A stretch of DNA of 64,000 bases, from positions 124,001-188,000 of the forward strand of contig NZ_JACWUN010000004.1 in NCBI RefSeq assembly GCF_014773365.1, in the 5' to 3' direction. Positions 7,030 to 51,890 of the stretch are shown here, piece by piece (position 1 is the stretch's first letter; each line of letters opens with the position of its first letter). Origin of the DNA: Pelovirga terrestris (GTDB taxonomy: Bacteria > Desulfobacterota > Desulfuromonadia > Desulfuromonadales > Geopsychrobacteraceae). Position numbers and translations under genes: made by a program. The notes beneath the pieces are model-generated. The model had not been told where the DNA came from, did not search any database, and worked only from the letters and a program-made list of their open reading frames with translations.

Positions 7030-7581
7030 ATGGAAGCGATCAACGTATTAGGGATCAGTGGCAGCCTGCGCAAAGCCTCGACCAACCGGGGACTACTGCG
7101 CTGGGCTCAGAATTGCGCCCCGGAGGGAATGCAGATAGAAACAGCGGATCTGAGTGAAATCCCTTTTTTTAATGCCGATCATCAGCACGATCAAGCTGAA
7201 GCGGTGTTGACCTTGATGCACCAGGCTGAAGGGGCCGATGCTCTGTTGCTGGCCTGTCCGGAATACAATTATTCCCTGGCCCCGGCGCTTAAAAATGCTC
7301 TCGACTGGTTGTCGCGGGCTCCGGACAATCATCTGTTGGCGGGCAAGCCAGTGGCGATCATGAGTTCAGGTGGTGGCCAGGGGGGTGCCAGGGCCCAGTA
7401 TCACCTGCGCCAGGTTTGCGTTTACCTCAATCTGCATCCCCTTAACAAGCCGGAAATCTTCTGCCATGCTTTCGGGAGCAGCTTTGACCCGCAGGGGAAT
7501 CTGGTTGATGACAAGATACAGAAGCAGATACGCGAGCTGCTCGCGGCGCTTGCTGATTGGCACGGCAGGATCAGGCGTTGA
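7030..7581 (+). CDS. NAD(P)H-dependent FMN reductase (flavodoxin-like)
   Basis: 183 residues with the FMN-phosphate loop GISGSLRKASTNRG at 9-22 and the family motif PEYNYSLAPALKNALDWLSR, followed by a Gly-rich loop SSGGGQGGARAQ. These mark the NADPH-dependent FMN reductase/ChrR-like quinone and chromate reductase family. It is cytoplasmic and would transfer two electrons from NAD(P)H to quinones, azo compounds or metal oxyanions. Its stop overlaps the next start (TGATG), linking it with the ApbE gene, which covalently attaches FMN to other proteins; both handle FMN. True substrate unknown. Confidence 0.85.
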   Translation: MEAINVLGISGSLRKASTNRGLLRWAQNCAPEGMQIETADLSEIPFFNADHQHDQAEAVLTLMHQAEGADALLLACPEYNYSLAPALKNALDWLSRAPDNHLLAGKPVAIMSSGGGQGGARAQYHLRQVCVYLNLHPLNKPEIFCHAFGSSFDPQGNLVDDKIQKQIRELLAALADWHGRIRR

Positions 7582-8612
7582 TGAGGGCTATTTTGCGTTT
7601 GTTGTTGATTGCTTGTGTTGTTTTGCTGTCAGTAACAGGCTGTCAGCAGCAGCCGGCAACGGACCCCTATTTGCAGTTGTCAGGGCAGACCATGGGCACG
7701 ACCTGGTCCGTTGCATTGCGTTCTACCAACACCTCAGATTTAGCCGGGATCAAGGCTGGATTGCATCAGCGCCTTGACGGCCTCAACGCGCTGATGTCGA
7801 CGTATGATTCTTCATCAGAGATTTCCCGTTTTAATCAGGACTCCGGCAACGACTGGTTTCCAGTCAGTGAAGATACCGCTCGGGTGGTTGCGTTGGCGCT
7901 GGAGATCAGCCGCCTGACGGATGGGGCCTTTGATGTCAGTGTTGGGCCCCTGGTTGAACTCTGGGGCTTCGGTGCACGACCGCGGCAATCTTCACCCCCT
8001 ACCTCTGAACAGATAGCGGCGGTTCTCGCTGCCGTCGGTTACGAAAATCTGGAGCTGCGCCGCGATCCTGCGGCGATCCGTAAAAAAATTCCGCAGCTGC
8101 GGATCGATTTCGCAGCTATAGCCAAAGGATACGCCGTTGATCTGCTGGCCCACTACCTTGACCAGCAGCAGATCGAACATTACCTGGTAGAAATTGGTGG
8201 TGAGCTGAAAATGAGGGGGGTGCGCAACGATGGCAGTCCCTGGCGCGTTGCCATTGAGCAGCCGTTGGACAGCAGCCGCAAGGTAGCAGCAATTTTTCCC
8301 TTGACCGATATCGCATTGGCAACCTCAGGGAATTATCGAAATTATTACGAGGAAAACGGCCGCCGCTATGTTCATACCATCGATCCGGTCAGCGGCAAGC
8401 CAATCCAACATCAACTTGCCTCAGCAACGGTTCTTGACCCTCTTGCTGCCCGGGCGGATGCTCTGGCGACGGCATTGATGGTGATGGGAGAGCATCGCGG
8501 CAGGCAGTTCTGCGAAGAACACCAGATTGCCGCGTACTTTATTATTCACCACAACACGGAGATGACCAGCTATTCCAGCCCGGCTTTGCAAGGGTTGCTG
8601 GAGCAGAGATAA
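7581..8612 (+). CDS. apbE: FAD:protein FMN transferase (ApbE), lipoprotein
   Basis: The start at 7581 (TGATG overlap) gives a clean lipoprotein signal: MRAILRLLLIACVVLLSVTGC with the lipidated Cys at residue 21. A longer frame from 7557 would bury this. The mature part shows TMGTTW, LMSTYDSSSEISRFN, the substrate-binding IDFAAIAKGYAVD, and near the end DALATALMVMGE with the metal-binding Asp. ApbE moves FMN from FAD to a Ser/Thr of periplasmic flavoproteins such as RnfG/NqrC or fumarate-reductase-like proteins. No target gene is adjacent in the window. Length (343 aa) is normal. Confidence 0.92.
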   Translation: MRAILRLLLIACVVLLSVTGCQQQPATDPYLQLSGQTMGTTWSVALRSTNTSDLAGIKAGLHQRLDGLNALMSTYDSSSEISRFNQDSGNDWFPVSEDTARVVALALEISRLTDGAFDVSVGPLVELWGFGARPRQSSPPTSEQIAAVLAAVGYENLELRRDPAAIRKKIPQLRIDFAAIAKGYAVDLLAHYLDQQQIEHYLVEIGGELKMRGVRNDGSPWRVAIEQPLDSSRKVAAIFPLTDIALATSGNYRNYYEENGRRYVHTIDPVSGKPIQHQLASATVLDPLAARADALATALMVMGEHRGRQFCEEHQIAAYFIIHHNTEMTSYSSPALQGLLEQR

Positions 8613-38929: not shown

Positions 38930-39400
38930 GTGAAAAACCATATCTGGAGGCCACTTTACGTTGTGGCGGCCATTGTTGTTCTGATTCTCGTGTTTCGGAT
39001 ATTTTACGTGCCGGAAGATTTTGGGATTCAGGAGCGTGGGTACACTTTCGGTTTTCATCGATTGGGCAATGAGCAGGAATGGAAGGAATTTCCGGCCAAA
39101 TACCGCGATAGCAGTTACTGCCAGGATTGCCATTATGATGTGACCGAGGTTTTTACGGTGTCTCAGCATGCGATGATTCAGTGCGAGAGTTGTCATGGCG
39201 CCGCCTTTGATCACCCTGAAAATCCTGAGAAACTGCCTATAGATCGTTCCCGCGAACTGTGTCTGCGTTGTCACAGCCAACTCTATACGCCTTCAAGCGG
39301 ACGTAGCAATATTCCTGGTATCAACCCGTCAGAGCACAATGTCGGAATTGAATGCAGTGCCTGTCATAACCCCCACAATCCCAGCCTCGAGGAGATGTGA
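38930..39400 (+). CDS. Membrane-anchored tetraheme cytochrome c (CbcS-like)
   Basis: 156 residues from a GTG at 38930, seven bases past AGGAGG. One N-terminal membrane helix (about 7-23) acts as an anchor; then four CxxCH sites: CQDCH, CESCH, CLRCH and CSACH, the last in a typical ECSACHNPHNP. It would sit on the periplasmic side and pass electrons from the membrane complex encoded by the next two genes. The order cytochrome c, Fe-S protein, NrfD-like protein matches the Cbc4 (CbcSTU) cluster of Geobacter. Confidence 0.85.
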   Translation: MKNHIWRPLYVVAAIVVLILVFRIFYVPEDFGIQERGYTFGFHRLGNEQEWKEFPAKYRDSSYCQDCHYDVTEVFTVSQHAMIQCESCHGAAFDHPENPEKLPIDRSRELCLRCHSQLYTPSSGRSNIPGINPSEHNVGIECSACHNPHNPSLEEM

Positions 39401-40176
39401 TGATGAAGAGGCGTGACTTTATCAAACAGACCGCAGTGTTCGTCACCGGAGCAGCCCTGTCGTCATCGGCGCTAGTGATGCTCGATCCAAAAGAGCTGCT
39501 GGCTCAACGCCCGGAATTGCGCTGGGGTTTTCTCGTTGATACGCACAAATGTGTCGGCTGCGGGTTCTGTGTCAAAGCCTGCAAAATAGAAAACGATATT
39601 CCAATTGAAGCCAATGTGACCCGAACCTGGGTCGAACGTTATGTGCTCAAAAAAAATGGCGAGGTACTGGCCGATTCCCCAAAAGCGGCGCTGAACGGGT
39701 TTACCAGTGAACTGATCGATCAGAATGCTTCAGGTTTAAAAGAGGTTGACGCAGATGAAATCGCTCAGGCGTTTTTTGTTCCTAAACTCTGCAATCAGTG
39801 CGAAACCCCAGCCTGTGTTCAGGTTTGCCCGGTCGGAGCAACCTATCAGACTGCTGACGGGATTGTTTTAATTGATCGAAAATGGTGTATCGGTTGTGGC
39901 TACTGTGTCATGGGATGTCCTTACGGCGTTCGCTTTTTTCATCCTGTGGAGCATGTTGCGGACAAATGCAACTTCTGTTATCACCGAATCTCCCAGGGTG
40001 GTAACACTGCCTGCGCTCAGGCATGCCCCTTCGGTGCGCGCAAAATAGGCAATCTGCGTGATCCCAACGATCCGGTAGCAAAGACTGTGTTACGTGATCG
40101 GGTTGGGGTGCTGCGCGATGAATATGGAACCAAGCCACAGGTGTTTTACCTCGGGCTGAGCAAGGAGGTACACTAG
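39400..40176 (+). CDS. Periplasmic four-cluster Fe-S protein (CbcT/NrfC-like)
   Basis: About 258 residues from the ATG at 39400 (GTG 39397 and ATG 39403 are the neighbours; GGAG at 39391). MMKRRDFIKQTAVFVTGAAL is a Tat signal with RRDFIK. Four cysteine clusters follow: CVGCGFCVKACK, CNQCETPACVQVCP, CIGCGYCVMGCP and CNFCYHRI...CAQACP, as in NrfC/PsrB/DmsB proteins. It links the cytochrome c to the NrfD-like quinone-reactive subunit. Its start overlaps the upstream stop (TGA at 39398-39400). Confidence 0.9.
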   Translation: MMKRRDFIKQTAVFVTGAALSSSALVMLDPKELLAQRPELRWGFLVDTHKCVGCGFCVKACKIENDIPIEANVTRTWVERYVLKKNGEVLADSPKAALNGFTSELIDQNASGLKEVDADEIAQAFFVPKLCNQCETPACVQVCPVGATYQTADGIVLIDRKWCIGCGYCVMGCPYGVRFFHPVEHVADKCNFCYHRISQGGNTACAQACPFGARKIGNLRDPNDPVAKTVLRDRVGVLRDEYGTKPQVFYLGLSKEVH

Positions 40177-40178
40177 TC

Positions 40179-41486
40179 ATGGTTGAGCAGATAGCGGCGA
40201 TGGTTGTCCATGGCGAAGCCTGGACCGTAAAAGATCTTTTTGTTCTGCCCAATGAGTATGTTTACTGGTCGATCCAAATTGTCATGTATCCCTACATGAC
40301 CGGTCTGGTTGCCGGCGCCTTTGTTCTGTCTTCGCTGTATCATGTTTTCGGGGTAGAGAAACTGAAGCAGATTGCCCGTTTTGCGCTGGTTTTTTCTTTC
40401 GCATTGTTACCGGTTGCCATGCTGCCGTTGTTGTTGCATCTGACCCAGCCGTTACGGGGTATCCATGTACTGATGACGCCACATTTTACCTCGGCCATTT
40501 CTGCCTTCGGCATTGTTTTCATGACCTATGCCTGTATTGTCGCCGCCGAGATCTGGTTTGTCTATCGCACGTTCATCGTAGCTTCGGTTGTTCGCCTTTC
40601 AGCAAAAGACAATCGAACGGTGTATCAACGTCTTTTATTGCAAATCTATCGAGTTATTTCACTCGGTGCGATGGATGTCTCCAAGGAAGCGGTTGAATCC
40701 GATCACAAGGCAGTCAAGTTTCTTGCCGGACTGGGAATCCCGGTCGCGTGCTTTCTGCACGGTTATGCCGGTTTTATCTTCGGTTCGGTCAAGGCCAACG
40801 CTCTCTGGATGACGCCGCTGATGCCGGTGATTTTCATCTTCTCCGCCGTGGTTTCGGGGATAGCTCTTTGTATCGTGAGCTATTACGTTTTTATGGAAAT
40901 ACGGAAACGGGCGGCCAAAGGCGGATGGAACTTCTTTTTGCCTGAAACCATTGGTCATGACCGCGCTGAATTTAGCTATGAGGAACTGAACAGCATGCAG
41001 GATCATGAAGTTAAAATGACTTCTAAATACCTGCTTATTTTTATGACGCTGGCACTGACTCTTGAAGTGCTTGATATGATCTTCCGCGGATACACCGCGG
41101 TAAAATCCTGGGATGCTTTGCGTCAGGTCATTTACGTCCATGATTTTACACAGATTTTTATTATGCAGGGGCTGCTTGGAAATGTTATTCCTTTCATCCT
41201 GCTGCTCTTGCCGCGCATTACCGTTCGTCGTGCCGTTAGCGCATCTTTGTTGGTCTTGTTAGGGGTGTTCATGATGCGGTGGAATGTCGTGATCGGTGGT
41301 CAGGCGTTTTCACTCACCTTTAATGGGTTCATGCATTATAGTCTGCCGATTATTCCCAACAGTATTGAAACCTTCAAGGAAGGGCTCATGGGGGCACTTT
41401 TGGTGGTTATTTCTCCCTTTGTCATTTTTTATTTTCTTAACATGGTTTTTCCGGCGTTTATGGAGGATAAATCTGCAACCCACTAA
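40179..41486 (+). CDS. NrfD/PsrC-like membrane subunit (CbcU-like)
   Basis: 435 residues, about ten membrane helices of the NrfD/PsrC kind, without heme motifs. It begins with a short cytoplasmic stretch, then NEYVYWSIQIVMYPYMTGLV; the helix LLPRITVRRAVSASLLVLLG and MMRWNVVIGGQ, the Asn/Arg-containing end region, are typical. It would oxidise or reduce membrane quinone and exchange electrons with the preceding Fe-S protein. Two bases separate it from that gene. Confidence 0.88.
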   Translation: MVEQIAAMVVHGEAWTVKDLFVLPNEYVYWSIQIVMYPYMTGLVAGAFVLSSLYHVFGVEKLKQIARFALVFSFALLPVAMLPLLLHLTQPLRGIHVLMTPHFTSAISAFGIVFMTYACIVAAEIWFVYRTFIVASVVRLSAKDNRTVYQRLLLQIYRVISLGAMDVSKEAVESDHKAVKFLAGLGIPVACFLHGYAGFIFGSVKANALWMTPLMPVIFIFSAVVSGIALCIVSYYVFMEIRKRAAKGGWNFFLPETIGHDRAEFSYEELNSMQDHEVKMTSKYLLIFMTLALTLEVLDMIFRGYTAVKSWDALRQVIYVHDFTQIFIMQGLLGNVIPFILLLLPRITVRRAVSASLLVLLGVFMMRWNVVIGGQAFSLTFNGFMHYSLPIIPNSIETFKEGLMGALLVVISPFVIFYFLNMVFPAFMEDKSATH

Positions 41487-45298: not shown

Positions 45299-45611
45299 AA
45301 GACAATCCTTAAGAGGGGTTGAACGTATCGCTGGATATATACTGCAGATGATGACAAAAGGCAATTCTCTCGGCAACTGAAGCAGTCATGTTCTACGATA
45401 ATTAGGTGGCGTTTTTCGTTGACACATGGGATAAATTATCATAATGTTCCGACATGTCACACACTGTATACTCTTTATAAAGGCTACAGATAGCTCCGGC
45501 AGAACCACTGAAATGTGGCTGTCTGGATGTAGGCGGTTGATGCTTGGCCAATGGTTATAAGTGTCAACCTTGATGAACGAACATTCTATCAACCACGGAA
45601 GGAGTAGTAAA

Positions 45612-45944
45612 ATGAAGAAAATTGTTGTTCTGATCGCCTGTCTTGCTCTGATGGCTCCAGGCATGGCCTTTTCTTTTGATATCAGCGGTTGGGAAAGCGC
45701 CAATAAGGATCGTGGTCAGTGGGCCTGGTTTACCGGACAAGCACAAAAATGTGATCAAACGATTCCTGTCCCAGGCTCAAAAACCCGTGCTGAGTGGGAA
45801 CAAATGTTGACCTCCGGTAGTGGTCTTCCTTGTGACGGTGCCGGCCTGAGTCAGCGCACGATCAAGCATATTTACCTGTTTCTTGACTCCCATGCCTCTG
45901 ATTCAGATGATCCGATGAACCAGAAGCCCGAGTCCTGCGGTTAA
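45612..45944 (+). CDS. Small secreted Cys-containing protein, first gene of the Mo-oxidoreductase operon
   Basis: 110 residues from the ATG at 45612, with GGAAGGAG before it; MKKIVVLIACLALMAPGMAF is a signal peptide (cut near AFS-F). The mature part has three cysteines (KCDQ, LPCDG, ESCG) but no CxxCH; the segment KHIYLFLDSHASDSDDP resembles the last helix of a cytochrome c. It could be a cytochrome-like protein that lost its heme, or a small redox partner. Family not recognised. It is followed by the TorD-like chaperone gene, and no promoter was clear upstream. Confidence 0.7.
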   Translation: MKKIVVLIACLALMAPGMAFSFDISGWESANKDRGQWAWFTGQAQKCDQTIPVPGSKTRAEWEQMLTSGSGLPCDGAGLSQRTIKHIYLFLDSHASDSDDPMNQKPESCG

Positions 45945-45953
45945 TCACTGAAA

Positions 45954-46436
45954 GTGATATCTGAGGATAAAAAAGAGGTTGCAGAGCGGCTAAAGGAATT
46001 GGTTGCTTTGCTGGAATACCCGACGCCCGAGGTCGCAGAGCGCTGTGACCTCGAGCTGGAAGACCTCGAGAGCCGTTATGTTCGTCTGTTTGTCAATGAC
46101 CTGGGTGGGGTAGCCGCTCCGCCTTATGCCGGTTGTTACCTAGTTGGTAGCGATCGGTTGAAGTTCATGTCTGAATTCAGTGGATTTTGTCTCAAGCACG
46201 GCCTTGCGTTGGATCCTGCTCAGCCTCCAGACTATATACCGATGATGGTGGAAGTGCTCGCTATGCTTCTGAGTGGTAATGATAGGCCAGAGATCCCTCA
46301 ACTGTTGATTACGAGCTATTATCAACAGTGGCCCGAAGCCTTTGCCGCTACACTCAAGCAAAGTGACGACATCGGAATATACGTAACCGTTGCTGAAGAG
46401 TTTTGTCGTCTTCTGCAAGAAGTTGCAGAAAAATAG
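45954..46436 (+). CDS. TorD/DmsD-family molybdoenzyme chaperone
   Basis: 160 residues, all helical, from a GTG at 45954. RYVRLFVNDLGGVAAPPYAG is the characteristic TorD motif (F...G...PPYES-like), and the distal YIPMMVEVLAML fits the (D..HIP.EL..) helix. It would bind the Tat signal and help insert the molybdenum cofactor into the enzyme encoded directly downstream. The ribosome site is weak; expression probably coupled with the small upstream gene. Confidence 0.85.
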   Translation: MISEDKKEVAERLKELVALLEYPTPEVAERCDLELEDLESRYVRLFVNDLGGVAAPPYAGCYLVGSDRLKFMSEFSGFCLKHGLALDPAQPPDYIPMMVEVLAMLLSGNDRPEIPQLLITSYYQQWPEAFAATLKQSDDIGIYVTVAEEFCRLLQEVAEK

Positions 46437-46535: not shown

Positions 46536-48740
46536 ATGAGTATCACTCGCAGGAACTTTCTCAAGGGCACGGCTGCCGGGCTTGGATGTCTGGGCATGTC
46601 GTCCATAGCTGGATTTCGCTATGTGAGCAAGGCCCACGCAAAGGAGCTGGCAGAACAGCAGGTCAAATATGTTGCGTCAAGCTGCGCCATTTGTACTAAC
46701 AAATGTGTATTTCGTGGTCAGGTGGTTAATGGCGTGATCAGACGTCTGGAGCCGCATCCGGAGTTTGCTAAAAGTCGTGGCATGATGTGCGCTCGTGGCA
46801 ATGCCGGGGCATGGACCCCTTACGACCCCAATCGCGTTAAATATCCGATGATCCGTACCGGGAAGCGCGGCGAAGGCAAGTGGAAAAAGGCTTCTTGGGA
46901 TGAGGCTTACGCCTACATTGCCGAAAAAACCAACAAAGTGGTTGAGGAAGAAGGCGGCCACCGTTCCTGTATCGGTTTTGCTTCTTCGGAAGGGACCTAT
47001 CACGAGCATTACTGGAACCAGTTCCGCGAAGTGTTTGGCTCACCTAACTCAGTTCGCCATACGACCTTGTGCTTAAGCTCGAATATCCGCGGATTTATGG
47101 CGGTGGTCGGAACTTACCCCAATGCCGATGTCATTAATTCACCCTTTATTATTCTTGCCGGTGCCAATCGGGCGGAGTCGTTTTATACCCCCGACACCAT
47201 GGATATATTCAGTGATCCCACTAAGAAGGTCATCTGCCTCGATCCGCGTTTTACCAAAACGGCAGCCAAGGCAACCAAATGGTATCCGATCAAGCCGGGC
47301 ACCGATATGGCCTTCGCCCTCGCGATGATGAACGTGATTATCGGCGAAGGACTTCACGATAAAGCTTATGTTGATAAATATGCCTATGGTTTTAACCAGT
47401 TGGCGCAGCATGTCAAGCAGTACACCCCCGAATGGGCGGAAAAAGAAACAGATATCCCGGCCCAGGGTATTCGTGACATCGCACGTGAGTTCGCCAGGAC
47501 TCCGGGTGCCGTATTTTATCCGGGACGGCGCTCCTCCTTTCAAGGGGACGATGTGGAGACCCGTCGTGCCATTGCTATGGTCAACGTCATTGTCGGTAGT
47601 TTTGATCGCAAAGGTGGTCTGATTCCGAACGTGACGATTCCTTTGGCCAAATATTTCTACGAGCCGGCCTGGTACTCCAAGACTCGTCCGCGTCTTGAAG
47701 AGGCCGACGTGACCTTCCTCAGTCCGCGTGACGGTTCATGGGTGGCCTGGCGTGACCGCGCCATCAAAGGTGACCCCTATGCCATCCGCGGGTTGTACAT
47801 CTATAAACAAAATGTTGTTGCCTCTGTCCCGGATCGCAATAAGACCATGGAGTTGTTTGACAAGCTGGACATTATCGTCTGTGTCGACACCTTCATGAGT
47901 GATACCGCCTGGTATGCGGATGTGGTGTTGCCTGAAAGCAACTATCTTGAACGACTGGATCCACCCAACACCTATGGTCTTAACTGCGTCGAACTGCCGA
48001 CTGTGACCATTCGTCAGCCGTTAATCCAGCCCATGTACGATACCCGCTCAGGGTTTGATATTGTCGTTGGGTTGGCCAAGTATTTTGAAGATGATGACGG
48101 CGCCACTCTCGATGAATATTTTGAGGGTGATGTTGAGTCCCATACCAGGGACGCTGTTGCAGAGTTTCCCGGCGCATTTGAGACGCTGAAGGAAAAAGCC
48201 TTTTTTTCTGAAGGCAAAGCATCGCCAATTGGTGACTATCTAAACGGTAAAAAGGCCATCAATACGCCGACGAAGAAGCTCGAACTTTACAGTGACGATT
48301 TCGAGAGTCGTGGTCTTGATCCGATGCCGACCTATAAACGGCCGGCAGACATCGGAGCCGACAAGTTCCGCTTTGTTGTCGGTCGCCACGCTATCCATAC
48401 CCAGTCAATGACGGCCAATTTTCCGGAACTCAACTGGCATATGCCGGAAAACACGGTCTGGATCAACAGCGCCAAAGCCAAGACAATGGGAATCAAGTCA
48501 GGGGATATGGTGCAACTGAAAAACCGTACCGGGGGTGAGGTGCAGATCAAGGCACAGGTTACTGAAGGGATTCGTCCCGACTGTGTGTATTATGCCAACG
48601 GTTACGGGAGTCTGTCCAAGGGACAGCCGCTGGTCTATGGCAAGGGCGCATCCCAGTCTCAGATACTGGAATCACACTTTGAACCGATCTCCGGCAACGC
48701 GTTGATGCATGAAACGATTGTAGAAATAAGGAGGGTTTAA
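46536..48740 (+). CDS. Mo-bis-MGD oxidoreductase catalytic subunit (PsrA/PhsA-like)
   Basis: 734 residues. Tat signal MSITRRNFLKGTAAGLGCLG; [4Fe-4S] ligands Cys50, Cys53, Cys57, Cys85 (CxxCxxxCx27C). The position of the molybdenum ligand in RHTTLCLSSN is Cys179, as in polysulfide/thiosulfate reductases and arsenate reductases. Later segments PESNYLERLDPPNTYGLN and GVRPDC-like IRPDCVYYANGYG fit the MGD-binding domains. With the B and C subunits it would reduce polysulfide, thiosulfate, sulfur or a like acceptor in the periplasm. A rhodanese lipoprotein gene downstream supports a sulfur role; arsenate or tetrathionate remain alternatives. Confidence 0.85.
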   Translation: MSITRRNFLKGTAAGLGCLGMSSIAGFRYVSKAHAKELAEQQVKYVASSCAICTNKCVFRGQVVNGVIRRLEPHPEFAKSRGMMCARGNAGAWTPYDPNRVKYPMIRTGKRGEGKWKKASWDEAYAYIAEKTNKVVEEEGGHRSCIGFASSEGTYHEHYWNQFREVFGSPNSVRHTTLCLSSNIRGFMAVVGTYPNADVINSPFIILAGANRAESFYTPDTMDIFSDPTKKVICLDPRFTKTAAKATKWYPIKPGTDMAFALAMMNVIIGEGLHDKAYVDKYAYGFNQLAQHVKQYTPEWAEKETDIPAQGIRDIAREFARTPGAVFYPGRRSSFQGDDVETRRAIAMVNVIVGSFDRKGGLIPNVTIPLAKYFYEPAWYSKTRPRLEEADVTFLSPRDGSWVAWRDRAIKGDPYAIRGLYIYKQNVVASVPDRNKTMELFDKLDIIVCVDTFMSDTAWYADVVLPESNYLERLDPPNTYGLNCVELPTVTIRQPLIQPMYDTRSGFDIVVGLAKYFEDDDGATLDEYFEGDVESHTRDAVAEFPGAFETLKEKAFFSEGKASPIGDYLNGKKAINTPTKKLELYSDDFESRGLDPMPTYKRPADIGADKFRFVVGRHAIHTQSMTANFPELNWHMPENTVWINSAKAKTMGIKSGDMVQLKNRTGGEVQIKAQVTEGIRPDCVYYANGYGSLSKGQPLVYGKGASQSQILESHFEPISGNALMHETIVEIRRV

Positions 48741-48743
48741 TTT

Positions 48744-49313
48744 ATGGCCAACGTGAAAAATAAACATTGGGCGATGGTGATCGACTCAGCAAAATGCATC
48801 GACTGTAAGGCTTGTGATGTTGCTTGTAAGCATGAGAATGGTATCGAAGCCAACGGGAGTCGCGAAGTCTACCGTAACTGGATTACGTCAAAAGGGGTTG
48901 AGGGGACGTACCCGAATCTTAAGCAGCGCTTTGAGCCAAGTCAGTGTCACCATTGTGCTAATACCCCATGTTATAAAGTCTGTCCGACCAGTGCGACCTA
49001 TAAAAATGAGGATGGACTGATCATGATGGACTACAAGCGCTGTATCGTTTGCTCAACCTGTATTGCCGCTTGTCCCTATGATGCTCGTTATGTATCCAAG
49101 CAGAAAAAGGCCATAGATAAGTGCACGTTCTGTGCACATCGTATCTATATCGGCAAATTGCCTGCCTGTGTTGATACCTGTCCGACGAAGGTCAGAGTGT
49201 TTGGCGATTTGAATGATCCCGAGAGCGAAGTTTCAAAGCTTCTGGCAAGTCGACACTATTTTGTGATCAAGCCGGAAGCCGGAACCAAACCAAATCTCTA
49301 CTACCTGACGTGA
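48744..49313 (+). CDS. Four-cluster Fe-S electron-transfer subunit (PsrB-like)
   Basis: 189 residues, no signal of its own, so exported by hitch-hiking with the Tat-borne A subunit. Four cluster motifs: CIDCKACDVACK, CHHCANTPCYKVCP, CIVCSTCIAACP and CTFCAHRI...CVDTCP. It wires the Mo subunit to the membrane subunit. Three bases separate it from the A subunit gene. Length is typical. Confidence 0.9.
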   Translation: MANVKNKHWAMVIDSAKCIDCKACDVACKHENGIEANGSREVYRNWITSKGVEGTYPNLKQRFEPSQCHHCANTPCYKVCPTSATYKNEDGLIMMDYKRCIVCSTCIAACPYDARYVSKQKKAIDKCTFCAHRIYIGKLPACVDTCPTKVRVFGDLNDPESEVSKLLASRHYFVIKPEAGTKPNLYYLT

Positions 49314-49323
49314 GGTGACAGAC

Positions 49324-50499
49324 ATGAGTACACTTATTGGCAGTGCGATACAGAACGCGAAAAGTTCTTTTTCCCCCCGCGGCGCGGCCTGGGCATTGTG
49401 GGCAGGGGTTCTTGTTATTATTGGTCTGGCTGCGTTGGTAAATTATCTTATCAATGGTCATGATGCCTACGGCACGTCGCGTCAGGTACCATGGGGTATT
49501 TTGATCTCGACCTATGTCTTTTTTGTGGTGTCCAGTACCGGGCTGTGTCTGGTCTCATCCTTGGGCCACGTTTTTGGTTTCAAGCAATTTGAGGTGATCG
49601 GTAAGCGCGCCATTGTCATGGCAATTGCCACCATTCTTGCCGGTTTTGCGGTTATTGCAACAGAAATCGGCTATCCTTTCCGCATGCTGATCTATAATTT
49701 TATTTCACCAAATTTTACGGCAGCAATCTGGTGGATGGGGACGCTGTATGGCCTGTATCTGTTGTTTATCCTGCTGGAATTCGGATTTATGATGAAGGTC
49801 AACCACAAATATGCCGGCTATGCCGGGTTGGCGGCCTTTGTCGCAGGGATTGCCGCACACTCTAATCTCGGTGCCGTTTTCGGACTGCTTGACGCGCGGA
49901 AGTGGTGGAGTGGTCCCTTTTTGCCGATCTATTTTATCCTTTCGGCAGCAGTTACCGGCTGTGCCATTGTCCTGCTGCTATTTGCCGTACGTTATATGAA
50001 GGAGAAGATGCCCGATAATGTGCGTGACACCATGTTAACCATCAGCAAGCTTTTTTGTTTCCTTCTCGGCGTGCTTATTTTCTTCGGTATCTGGAAGTTG
50101 TTCTCTTCACTTTATGCCGGAGCTCCAGGAAAATACGAGGCAATGATGGCCCTGATCAATGGACCGCTTTGGATCAGCTACTGGGGTTTCGAAGTGTTTC
50201 TGGGGATGGTGTTACCCTTTGTGTTGATTTTGGCAACTAAAGGTAAACATTTGGGTGTTGCGGTCTTTGCCGCTGCCAGCAGTATGATCGGGATTTTCTT
50301 CATGCGTTATAACCTTGTTGTTGCCGGTCAGCTCAAGCCGATGCGCTACGACCCGGAGGTTGTTAATGCCAGTGGCTTGGTCAGTTATGCACCGTCAATG
50401 ACCGAGATTGGAATTGTTTTGGGAGGCATCGGCCTGTGTCTGCTGATGTATATTGCGGCCAATATGATTTTTAATCTGGACGCTGACAAGCATCATTAA
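49324..50499 (+). CDS. NrfD/PsrC-like quinone-reactive membrane subunit
   Basis: 391 residues from the ATG at 49324, eight bases after GAGG; a GTG at 49315 is the alternative. About nine to ten membrane helices of NrfD/PsrC type, with EIGYPFRMLIYNFISPNFTA and, near the end, FFMRYNLVVAGQLKPM, which includes the conserved Arg-Tyr-Asn. It would exchange electrons with menaquinone and pass them to the Fe-S subunit. Last membrane component of the operon, then the rhodanese lipoprotein gene 140 bases downstream. Confidence 0.87.
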   Translation: MSTLIGSAIQNAKSSFSPRGAAWALWAGVLVIIGLAALVNYLINGHDAYGTSRQVPWGILISTYVFFVVSSTGLCLVSSLGHVFGFKQFEVIGKRAIVMAIATILAGFAVIATEIGYPFRMLIYNFISPNFTAAIWWMGTLYGLYLLFILLEFGFMMKVNHKYAGYAGLAAFVAGIAAHSNLGAVFGLLDARKWWSGPFLPIYFILSAAVTGCAIVLLLFAVRYMKEKMPDNVRDTMLTISKLFCFLLGVLIFFGIWKLFSSLYAGAPGKYEAMMALINGPLWISYWGFEVFLGMVLPFVLILATKGKHLGVAVFAAASSMIGIFFMRYNLVVAGQLKPMRYDPEVVNASGLVSYAPSMTEIGIVLGGIGLCLLMYIAANMIFNLDADKHH

Positions 50500-50639: not shown

Positions 50640-51824
50640 ATGCGATTTTTGCGAGTCAAATTGCTGCCACTTGTTGCATTGCTGCTGTTTGCCGCGGGTT
50701 GCGCGACAACAGCACCGACAGCGGCGGTAACGCCGTCGGCGCAGGGGCACACCCAACTGGTGGAGCAGGATCCCACAATTGCCATCACCACCAGTGAGGT
50801 TAAGGCCCTGTTCAATGAAGTATACGGCGATGCACCGCTAATCCAGGAAACCCTGGACAAGAACGACAAGTTTGTACTGGTGGATACCCGTCCAATCACC
50901 CGTTTCTCGGCTGATACGGTTCCGGGCTCCATCCATATTCCGACTCCGAAGTTTGAGAGTGACATTCCCAAGTTGTCCAGGGATAAGGCCATTATCTTCT
51001 ATTGTGGAGGATTGGCCTGACCTTTCACCTCTCAAGCGGCGGTCGTCGCTCAAAAAAATGGTTTAACCAACATCAAAGCCTGGTACGAAGGTGAGCCTGG
51101 CTGGACGGCAGCAGGAAATTACACCATTATCCAAACTGGTCCGGTAAAAGCGCTGGTCGATGACAGCACCAAGGGTGGATTTGCTCTGATCGATTCACGT
51201 CCTCATCTGGTCAGCCAGAAAGAGCATATCCCCGGTTCCATCTCTATCCCCTGGGTTCTGTGGGAGCAGAAAAAAGGCCTGTTGCCGGCGGATAAAGATA
51301 CCCTGTTGATCTTCTACTGCGGCGGTCATCACTGTGACTTGAGTCATAAGAGTGCCAATGCCGCATTGGCTATGGGCTATAAAAAAGTTCGTGTTTACGC
51401 CGAAGGTATCCCGGCCTGGAAAAAAGCCGGCCATGGTACCTGGGGTAATGATGCCAGCGGCATCGTCGAAGCACCTAAAGGCCCCTCCCCCACCATTAGT
51501 GCAGAAGATCTGCTCAAAGGCATCGCCGACGGCAGCCTGTTCATCGTCGATGTGCGCAGCGAGCGTGAGTTCAATGCCGGTCATATACCCGGTGCCGTGC
51601 TGATTCCCGATGGCGAATTCTATAACAACATGGAAGGCGTGCTCAAGCAGCTGCCGACCGATAAGAAGGTTGTTTTTGTTTGTGCAACCGGTGCCCGTTC
51701 CGGTGGTGCTTTCTTCGCATTGCAGGAAGAGATCGAAGATGGCAACTACAAAAACGAAAAAGGTGTTGTCTATCTGCCTTACAACGTGGATTGCAAGGCC
51801 GACGGAACCTTTGAAATCAAATAA
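50640..51824 (+). CDS. Selenocysteine-containing triple-rhodanese lipoprotein
   Basis: One 394-residue gene interrupted only by an in-frame TGA at 51018-51020 (codon 127). Residues 1-21 are a lipoprotein signal with lipobox FAAGC. Domain 1 (about 45-160) reads YCGGLA-U-PFTSQAAV, domain 2 (about 165-275) reads YCGGHH-C-DLSHKSAN at the same position, and domain 3 (about 283-394) has FVCATGARSGGAF. The TGA thus stands exactly where domain 2 has Cys232, the frame is kept after it, and homology continues (WYEGEPGW / YAEGIPAW). A SECIS-like hairpin follows the TGA. It would carry sulfane sulfur or polysulfide in the periplasm for the neighbouring Psr-like enzyme. The alternative is a nonsense mutation. 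Confidence 0.85.
51018..51050 (+). promoter_or_regulatory. UGA selenocysteine codon with bacterial SECIS-like hairpin
   Basis: TGA at 51018-51020. After 14 bases the hairpin AGCGGC (51035-51040), loop GGTC (51041-51044), GTCGCT (51045-51050) forms six pairs with one G-U. The loop begins 20 bases after the TGA and is GGUC, the same loop as in the E. coli fdhF SECIS element, where it begins at a like distance. Confidence 0.75.
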
Positions 51825-51855: not shown

Positions 51856-51890
51856 AAAAAGGCAGCTCCCTCTTGTGGGCTGCCTTTTTT
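51856..51890 (+). terminator. Rho-independent terminator after the rhodanese gene
   Basis: AAAAAGGCAGC (51856-51866) pairs with GCTGCCTTTTT (51879-51889). Strong stem with T run, closing the operon. Confidence 0.93.

Follow-up and report, generated by a model that had tools for sequence, protein, structure and literature searches.

The window analysed here, that is, the whole stretch of 64,000 nt of Pelovirga terrestris DNA, carries a gene for a protein with three rhodanese domains, located downstream of a conserved block of genes for a Psr/Phs-like molybdenum enzyme. The genes and features of the locus are as follows:

45561..45944, plus strand: Hp127, a small protein of 127 aa, first of the conserved block, with no Pfam match at E 0.01
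45954..46436, plus strand: TorD/NarJ-like chaperone for a Mo enzyme
46536..48740, plus strand: Psr/Phs-like molybdopterin catalytic subunit with a weak Tat-signal match
48744..49313, plus strand: 4Fe-4S electron-transfer subunit (PsrB-like)
49315..50499, plus strand: NrfD/PsrC-like membrane subunit
50640..51824, plus strand: triple-rhodanese lipoprotein gene of 394 codons, with TGA taken as selenocysteine (Sec)
50640..50702, plus strand: signal peptide with lipobox-like LLLFAAGC, Cys21 at 50700-50702
50865..51119, plus strand: rhodanese domain 1, about codons 76-160 (limits approximate), loop C122-G-G-L-A-U127
51018..51020, plus strand: TGA, predicted selenocysteine codon 127
51035..51050, plus strand: putative bSECIS hairpin of 6 bp, stem 51035-51040 with 51045-51050, loop GGUC at 51041-51044
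51132..51434, plus strand: rhodanese domain 2, about codons 165-265 (limits approximate), loop C227-G-G-H-H-C232
51489..51728, plus strand: rhodanese domain 3, about codons 284-363 (limits approximate), canonical CX4R loop C348-A-T-G-A-R353
51861..51889, plus strand: probable transcription terminator 3' of the gene, stem GGCAGC/GCTGCC followed by a T run (by-eye reading)

The genes upstream of the rhodanese gene form a PsrABC/PhsABC-type set in which the Mo, FeS and NrfD subunits are all present, which bears out the Mo-dependent sulfur-type reductase that a preliminary description of this DNA had seen beside the rhodanese gene. Among solved structures, the Mo subunit of this complex is nearest to 2vpw (E 9e-114), there named thiosulfate reductase. 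Its best NCBIfam match is PhsA, with a score of 483.1 that falls below the cut-off of 694.

The rhodanese frame is open from 50640 to 51821 and is terminated by TAA at 51822-51824, with the TGA of codon 127 as the only stop inside it. This single in-frame TGA had been noted from the letters alone, together with its alignment to Cys232 of the second domain, and we find both: YCGGLAU of domain 1 is matched by YCGGHHC of domain 2. In domain 3, the TGA lines up with the Arg of the CX4R loop. In other words, Sec would be placed five residues past the sulfur-carrying Cys (CxxxxU), at the Arg position of the rhodanese loop. The homology said to continue past the TGA is seen in the match to Pfam Rhodanese (PF00581), which covers three stretches of the protein with 144.1 bits against a gathering score of 22.2. 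The loop cysteines C122, C227 and C348 are invariant in an alignment of 34 sequences, and so are the columns of residue 127, C232 and R353 when Sec is written as Cys. Likewise, a lipobox had been claimed, and Cys21, which stands in a motif that we take to be lipobox-like, occupies an invariant column in an alignment of 10 sequences. An AlphaFold2 model built from the 34 sequences, again with Sec as Cys, has a mean pLDDT of 90.0 and a pTM of 0.84; in it, residues 122-128 are a loop that connects a strand with a helix. The top solved match of the model by Z is BH2092 (3nhv; Z 17.7, 111 residues, 1.8 A), which has YCWGPAC, that is, a Cys at the same C+5 place.

The GGUC-loop hairpin reported earlier is indeed present, its loop lying 20 nt after the TGA. 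Its energy is -8.0 kcal/mol in the folded stretch and -7.3 kcal/mol as an isolated hairpin, the limit of the published bSECIS model being at most -7.5 kcal/mol (PMC13188914). The loop (4-nt GGUC), stem (6 bp) and spacing (20 nt) are all within the limits of this model. The energy alone is unexceptional, as 24, 32 and 75 of 200 shuffles fold equally well for three stretches. That the hairpin stands above chance follows instead from comparison, since its core is identical in one same-genus genome (G086), is absent in another (G088) and has the same spacing in Desulfurivibrio.

Both of these same-genus relatives cover the site; a third one, G087, ends at a contig end before the site and lies outside the comparison. 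A truncated first domain in close relatives had been named beforehand as evidence against Sec. Neither genome has one: the full first domain is present in both, with Sec in G086 (L019/L051) and Cys in G088 (L018/L053). In the window gene, no other stop interrupts the frame. In G086, the TGA is at the same codon and the 14-nt hairpin core is identical to that of the window, with an outer pair that is G-C in G086 and A-U in the window (one compensated pair). In G088, codon 127 is TGT and the hairpin is destroyed. Protein identity to the window is 88% for G088 and 82% for G086, and nucleotide identity over the first 909 nt is 84.5% and 76.7%, respectively. The 36 nt after the codon, however, are 39% identical between the window and G088, compared with 81% and 86% in the two flanking stretches of 180 nt each. 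Between the window and G086, which both have Sec, the same 36 nt are 83% identical, compared with 72% and 70% in the flanks. A Sec/Cys difference does not always accompany an altered region after the codon: in the pair L098/L089 this region is 75% identical versus 84% and 82% in the flanks, and in the pair L097/L085 it is 89% identical versus 76% and 75%. From codon 143 onward, we observed purifying selection, with Ka/Ks of 0.06 against G088 and of 0.14 against G086, where the gene is cut at codon 303. The part downstream of the TGA is therefore not decaying.

To place the site in the wider family, we scanned named genomes and retained 80 of 139 confirmed matches, which correspond to 79 distinct loci. 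The peptide patterns of the scan demanded Cys in one of two loops, so that double-Sec proteins were outside its reach. Aligning homologues at codon 127 had been suggested as a check. In addition to Sec in G086 and Cys in G088, this gave a TGA at the C+5 site in 11 of the 79 loci, six in domain 1 (L051, L052, L058, L097, L098 and L124) and five in domain 2 (L055, L061, L068, L113 and L122). The other 68 of the 79 loci lack Sec at the site; selenium is thus not essential to the fold or role of these proteins. In 11 of 11 Sec loci the other domain has Cys at the equivalent place, a regularity partly built into the scan patterns, and a search of 136 genomes of the order gave no two-TGA protein of the family among the matches listed. 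Since Fuchsiella and Natroniella of the Bacillota are among the Sec carriers, the TGA site is found in two phyla. Desulfurivibrio AMeS2 has one copy with Sec in domain 1 and another with Sec in domain 2. G298, from the Desulfurivibrio family, has one TGA copy of each kind as well, both on one contig, and the hairpin is seen again in this genome; in this family, 5 of 27 genomes have a match at E 1e-40. On a quick tree of 86 rows, the three states (D1, D2 and none, by the domain with Sec) require at least eight changes, with gain and loss indistinguishable there. The window, L051 and L053 cluster with Desulfurivibrio D1 genes (SH-aLRT 99), which suggests that the operon was transferred between lineages.

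The survey also makes it possible to look at the hairpin across sites. For the 12 Sec sites (the window and 11 loci), the best hairpin has energies from -7.1 to -13.8 kcal/mol with a median of -9.8, compared with a median of -4.0 for 137 Cys sites (Mann-Whitney p 6e-6, an optimistic value since the rows are related). The -7.5 limit is passed by 10 of the 12 Sec sites and by 31 of the 137 Cys sites; general bSECIS limits divide the two kinds only partly. A stricter rule (loop starting with GG or GU, spacing of 18-23, at most -7.0), which is post hoc as it was picked after the data had been seen, takes in 10 of the 11 locus Sec sites, the window not being counted, and 2 of the 137 Cys sites. One of the latter is L085, the Cys sister of L097. 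In L097 the TGA comes with a SECIS-like hairpin, and L085 carries the same hairpin, which means that hairpin and TGA are not always together. Desulfurivibrio shares the hairpin of the window at the same distance, and four sequences display one compensated pair and one one-sided change. This covariation is weak alone, as the one compensated pair is reached by 138 of 500 shuffles of the four sequences.

A search of the genome for sel genes, which had likewise been called for, located selA, selB and selD in one cluster (C22:6678-11055) and a tRNA-Sec that scores 69.7 bits (gathering score 47) and has the anticodon TCA. The selD gene (G000:C22:10129-11055) holds one in-frame TGA itself, and the SelD of the host is probably a selenoprotein. 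Both selA and tRNA-Sec are over the cut-off in 8 of 9 searched genomes carrying a Sec rhodanese. The same holds for 10 of 11 genomes in which the sites of the retrieved locus are Cys, and the Sec machinery, being common in these genomes as well, is not diagnostic by itself.

These data bear on two readings in which codon 127 does not specify Sec. The TGA might be a real stop, with the result being either a pseudogene or a single-domain protein and a remnant that has its own start. The standard code does break the frame into two ORFs, a split that had been foreseen for gene callers, and L097 has its TGA in a draft, metagenome-assembled genome without visible Sec machinery, a search of which put neither selA nor tRNA-Sec over the cut-off. 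However, the earliest in-frame restart codon past the TGA of the window is TTG 51282, inside domain 2, so that no restart codon is available ahead of this domain and two separate genes are unlikely. The recurrence of the same TGA with a conserved hairpin in another genome, strong purifying selection past the TGA and its occurrence in either domain and in two phyla also argue against a real stop, which we regard as highly improbable. Even less credit can be given to a TGA decoded as another residue, by suppression or recoding, or to a sequencing error. We found no point in support of these; the tRNA-Sec with the TCA anticodon, the selA-selB-selD cluster and the recurrence of the TGA in separate assemblies speak against them. 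A pseudogene, two genes and another residue at the TGA were accordingly rejected in view of the recurring TGA, the hairpin, the selection and the Sec machinery. Judging from sequence, the gene would encode a secreted, lipid-anchored protein with three rhodanese domains and a mass, estimated from its length, of about 42 kDa, and codon 127 is almost certainly read as Sec by means of the SECIS element.

The gene neighbourhood of the window is shared by a part of the family. The whole five-gene block together with the rhodanese gene is found in L052, L053 and L057, while L051 and L058 have four of its genes, the latter on a short contig. In L051 (G086) the rhodanese gene comes after the FeS gene with no NrfD-like gene in between (7407-7971). 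A Mo-subunit match (E 1e-8) is present in the fetched flanks, whose length varies with the contig, of 18 of the 79 loci; the domain-2 Sec copies L055, L061 and L122 have no such match within their fetched flanks. The Natroniella locus runs from a rhodanese through the Mo subunit, the FeS subunit and a TorD-like protein to a triple rhodanese whose Sec is in domain 2. A sulfur transporter (PF04143) and TusA come after the second AMeS2 copy. Overall, Sec rhodanese and Psr-like Mo genes lie together in records under the names Geobacteraceae, Desulfobulbaceae and Halobacteroidaceae.

The notion of a rhodanese in a Psr-like operon as a sulfur donor to PsrA is already in print. According to an earlier suggestion, the neighbouring rhodanese would bind and stabilise sulfur and deliver it to PsrA (PMC5016858), and the AMeS2 Psr operon RS06465-06490, which includes a three-rhodanese lipoprotein, has been reported as upregulated in sulfur disproportionation (PMC12142623). 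The new part is selenium. The rhodaneses of the Desulfurivibrio Psr operon (DaAHT2_0417 of D. alkaliphilus and RS06465 of AMeS2, the latter with three rhodanese domains) have the same operon content as the window protein. L052 (AMeS2) is very likely RS06465, given which genes the operon contains and how many, and L185, which is probably from D. alkaliphilus, is very likely DaAHT2_0417; both have the TGA at the same codon and the same hairpin as the window. The string 'selen' is absent from the main text of PMC5016858 and is confined to the growth medium in the main texts of PMC12142623 and PMC5516251. RS06465 has been described as having three domains and a signal peptide (PMC12142623), so the public record may already be full length. 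In the literature covered, with most subscription journals outside it, we found no paper joining selenocysteine with a Psr-like operon; the nearest printed parallel is a type of sulfide quinone reductase predicted to be a selenoprotein (PMC13188914).

Rhodanese-like selenoproteins as such had been said to be predicted before, and five forms are tabulated in PMC13188914. Form 1 has the motif UxxS (WP_010941598.1; PMC13188914, PMC9312934), whereas the window protein has UxxT (UPFT) and L098 has UxxS (UKLS). Form 1-like relatives (YCSG[ST][ST]U and YCLGxxU) have Sec five residues past the loop Cys, in several cases followed by UxxS, so that our Sec site is, judging by the motif, probably the same as that of form 1; these relatives have one or two domains versus three in the window protein. 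TsoB (NF045694) has UxxxxU in its loop, with spacing equal to CxxxxU of the window (PMC13188914), and its rhodanese part matches the window protein with 96.9 bits, below the cut-off of 805. Unlike the window protein, TsoB is named a DsbD-like fusion, is encoded in an operon for three selenoproteins and has a Sec at each of the two positions. In form 3 (NF041203, CxU; 65.6 against a cut-off of 115, thus below) Sec is two residues after Cys instead of five. ExtH (NF040901) scores 20 against a curated cut-off of 200, and no NCBIfam model is over its cut-off on the window protein. Sud of Wolinella succinogenes, a periplasmic polysulfide-binding rhodanese proposed to feed the Psr Mo enzyme, is a small soluble Cys-only homodimer, from which the window protein is set apart, by description, through its three domains, lipid anchor and Sec. 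Consequently, what is new is probably a triple-domain, lipid-anchored rhodanese that belongs to a Psr-like operon and in which Sec switches from one tandem domain to the other, the C+5 Sec site itself being probably known.

Several other rhodaneses with Sec were encountered. L040 (1066-2445), from another family of the order, encodes a multi-rhodanese protein that has an additional N-terminal region and CGGPTU in rhodanese domain 1. Several genomes of the order have two-domain rhodaneses with YCLGxxU that look secreted (L131-L135, L137-L139, L041 and L042), and their relatives L043-L046 have Cys at that place. YCSG[ST][ST]U rhodaneses from family f25 of the class (L178, L179, L181 and L183) are possibly the known form 1.

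Based on gene context and conserved residues, we consider it probable that codon-127 Sec belongs to a secreted, lipid-anchored triple rhodanese that works, most likely with the Psr/Phs-like Mo complex, in sulfur transfer. The loop Cys of each domain would take up sulfane sulfur from polysulfide, the putative substrate, outside the inner membrane, and the sulfur might then be passed on toward the Mo subunit, as both the context and the printed models of the same operon suggest. In domain 1, Cys122 as the presumed sulfur carrier and Sec127 would share one loop, and because Sec replaces the usual Arg in this loop, Sec127 may well assist Cys122. It would probably act as a fast partner that attacks the persulfide or resolves it to a selenenylsulfide, and the outcome might be quick release or handing on of sulfur. 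In relatives, it is domain 2 that has Sec at this place, or else both domains have Cys there. Of the selenium-based sulfur carrier put forward in the preliminary description, Sec in a rhodanese therefore stands but the carrier role is less secure, since Sec at the Arg place makes a Cys-Sec pair likelier; a partner or resolving residue is a likelier role for Sec than that of sulfur carrier. It is tempting to speculate further that in these tandem rhodaneses the one-loop Cys-Sec pair is a polysulfide-cleaving relay for the Mo reductase, in which the single Sec has repeatedly been placed in domain 1 or domain 2 or has reverted to Cys. We offer this extension tentatively.

Other functions may be envisaged for the operon. 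The Mo enzyme might reduce thiosulfate or some other compound, as its best, although below cut-off, match to PhsA could indicate. Alternatively, it might oxidise sulfide to sulfur with the rhodanese removing the product; elemental-sulfur formation during sulfide oxidation has been put forward as a possible role of the D. alkaliphilus operon (PMC5516251). However, the similar AMeS2 operon, upregulated as mentioned above, was assigned to polysulfide reduction (PMC12142623), and we hold such functions to be unlikely, if still serious candidates. It might also be that the protein does contain Sec but serves in repair or detoxification (of an oxidised loop Cys, selenite or arsenic) and not in sulfur transfer to the reductase. 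Characterised selenoproteins are, as generally known, mostly redox enzymes (PMC9312934). ExtH, the rhodanese of a selenite/tellurite operon, is a relative, distant by its score (20 bits versus 200), and the second AMeS2 paralogue, which adjoins the sulfur transporter and TusA, has no Mo-subunit match in its flanks. Yet these neighbours handle sulfur too, and the window copy and its nearest kin sit in a Psr-like operon. A role in repair or detoxification thus seems rather improbable.

If sulfur transfer to the Mo complex is the correct reading, Sec in either domain points to a selenium-assisted step in the polysulfide respiration of some bacteria. Should the relay hold true as well, sulfur respiration would include a step that depends on selenium, one that goes unmentioned in the examined proteome and transcriptome studies of cultured Desulfurivibrio. 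Since the standard code splits genes of this kind at the TGA, sulfur-cycle surveys may misjudge what they do. Naturally occurring Sec and Cys versions, found both within one genus and in tandem domains of one protein, provide a direct test bed for the question of why Sec is used versus Cys, and named strains of Desulfurivibrio, Natroniella and Fuchsiella are among the Sec carriers.

Elsewhere in the window, a second pair of FeS and NrfD-like genes (TtrB/DsrO-like and NrfD-like) is located at 39397-41486 on the plus strand, and a c-di-GMP-I riboswitch (55.6 bits) is located at 1329-1403 on the minus strand.
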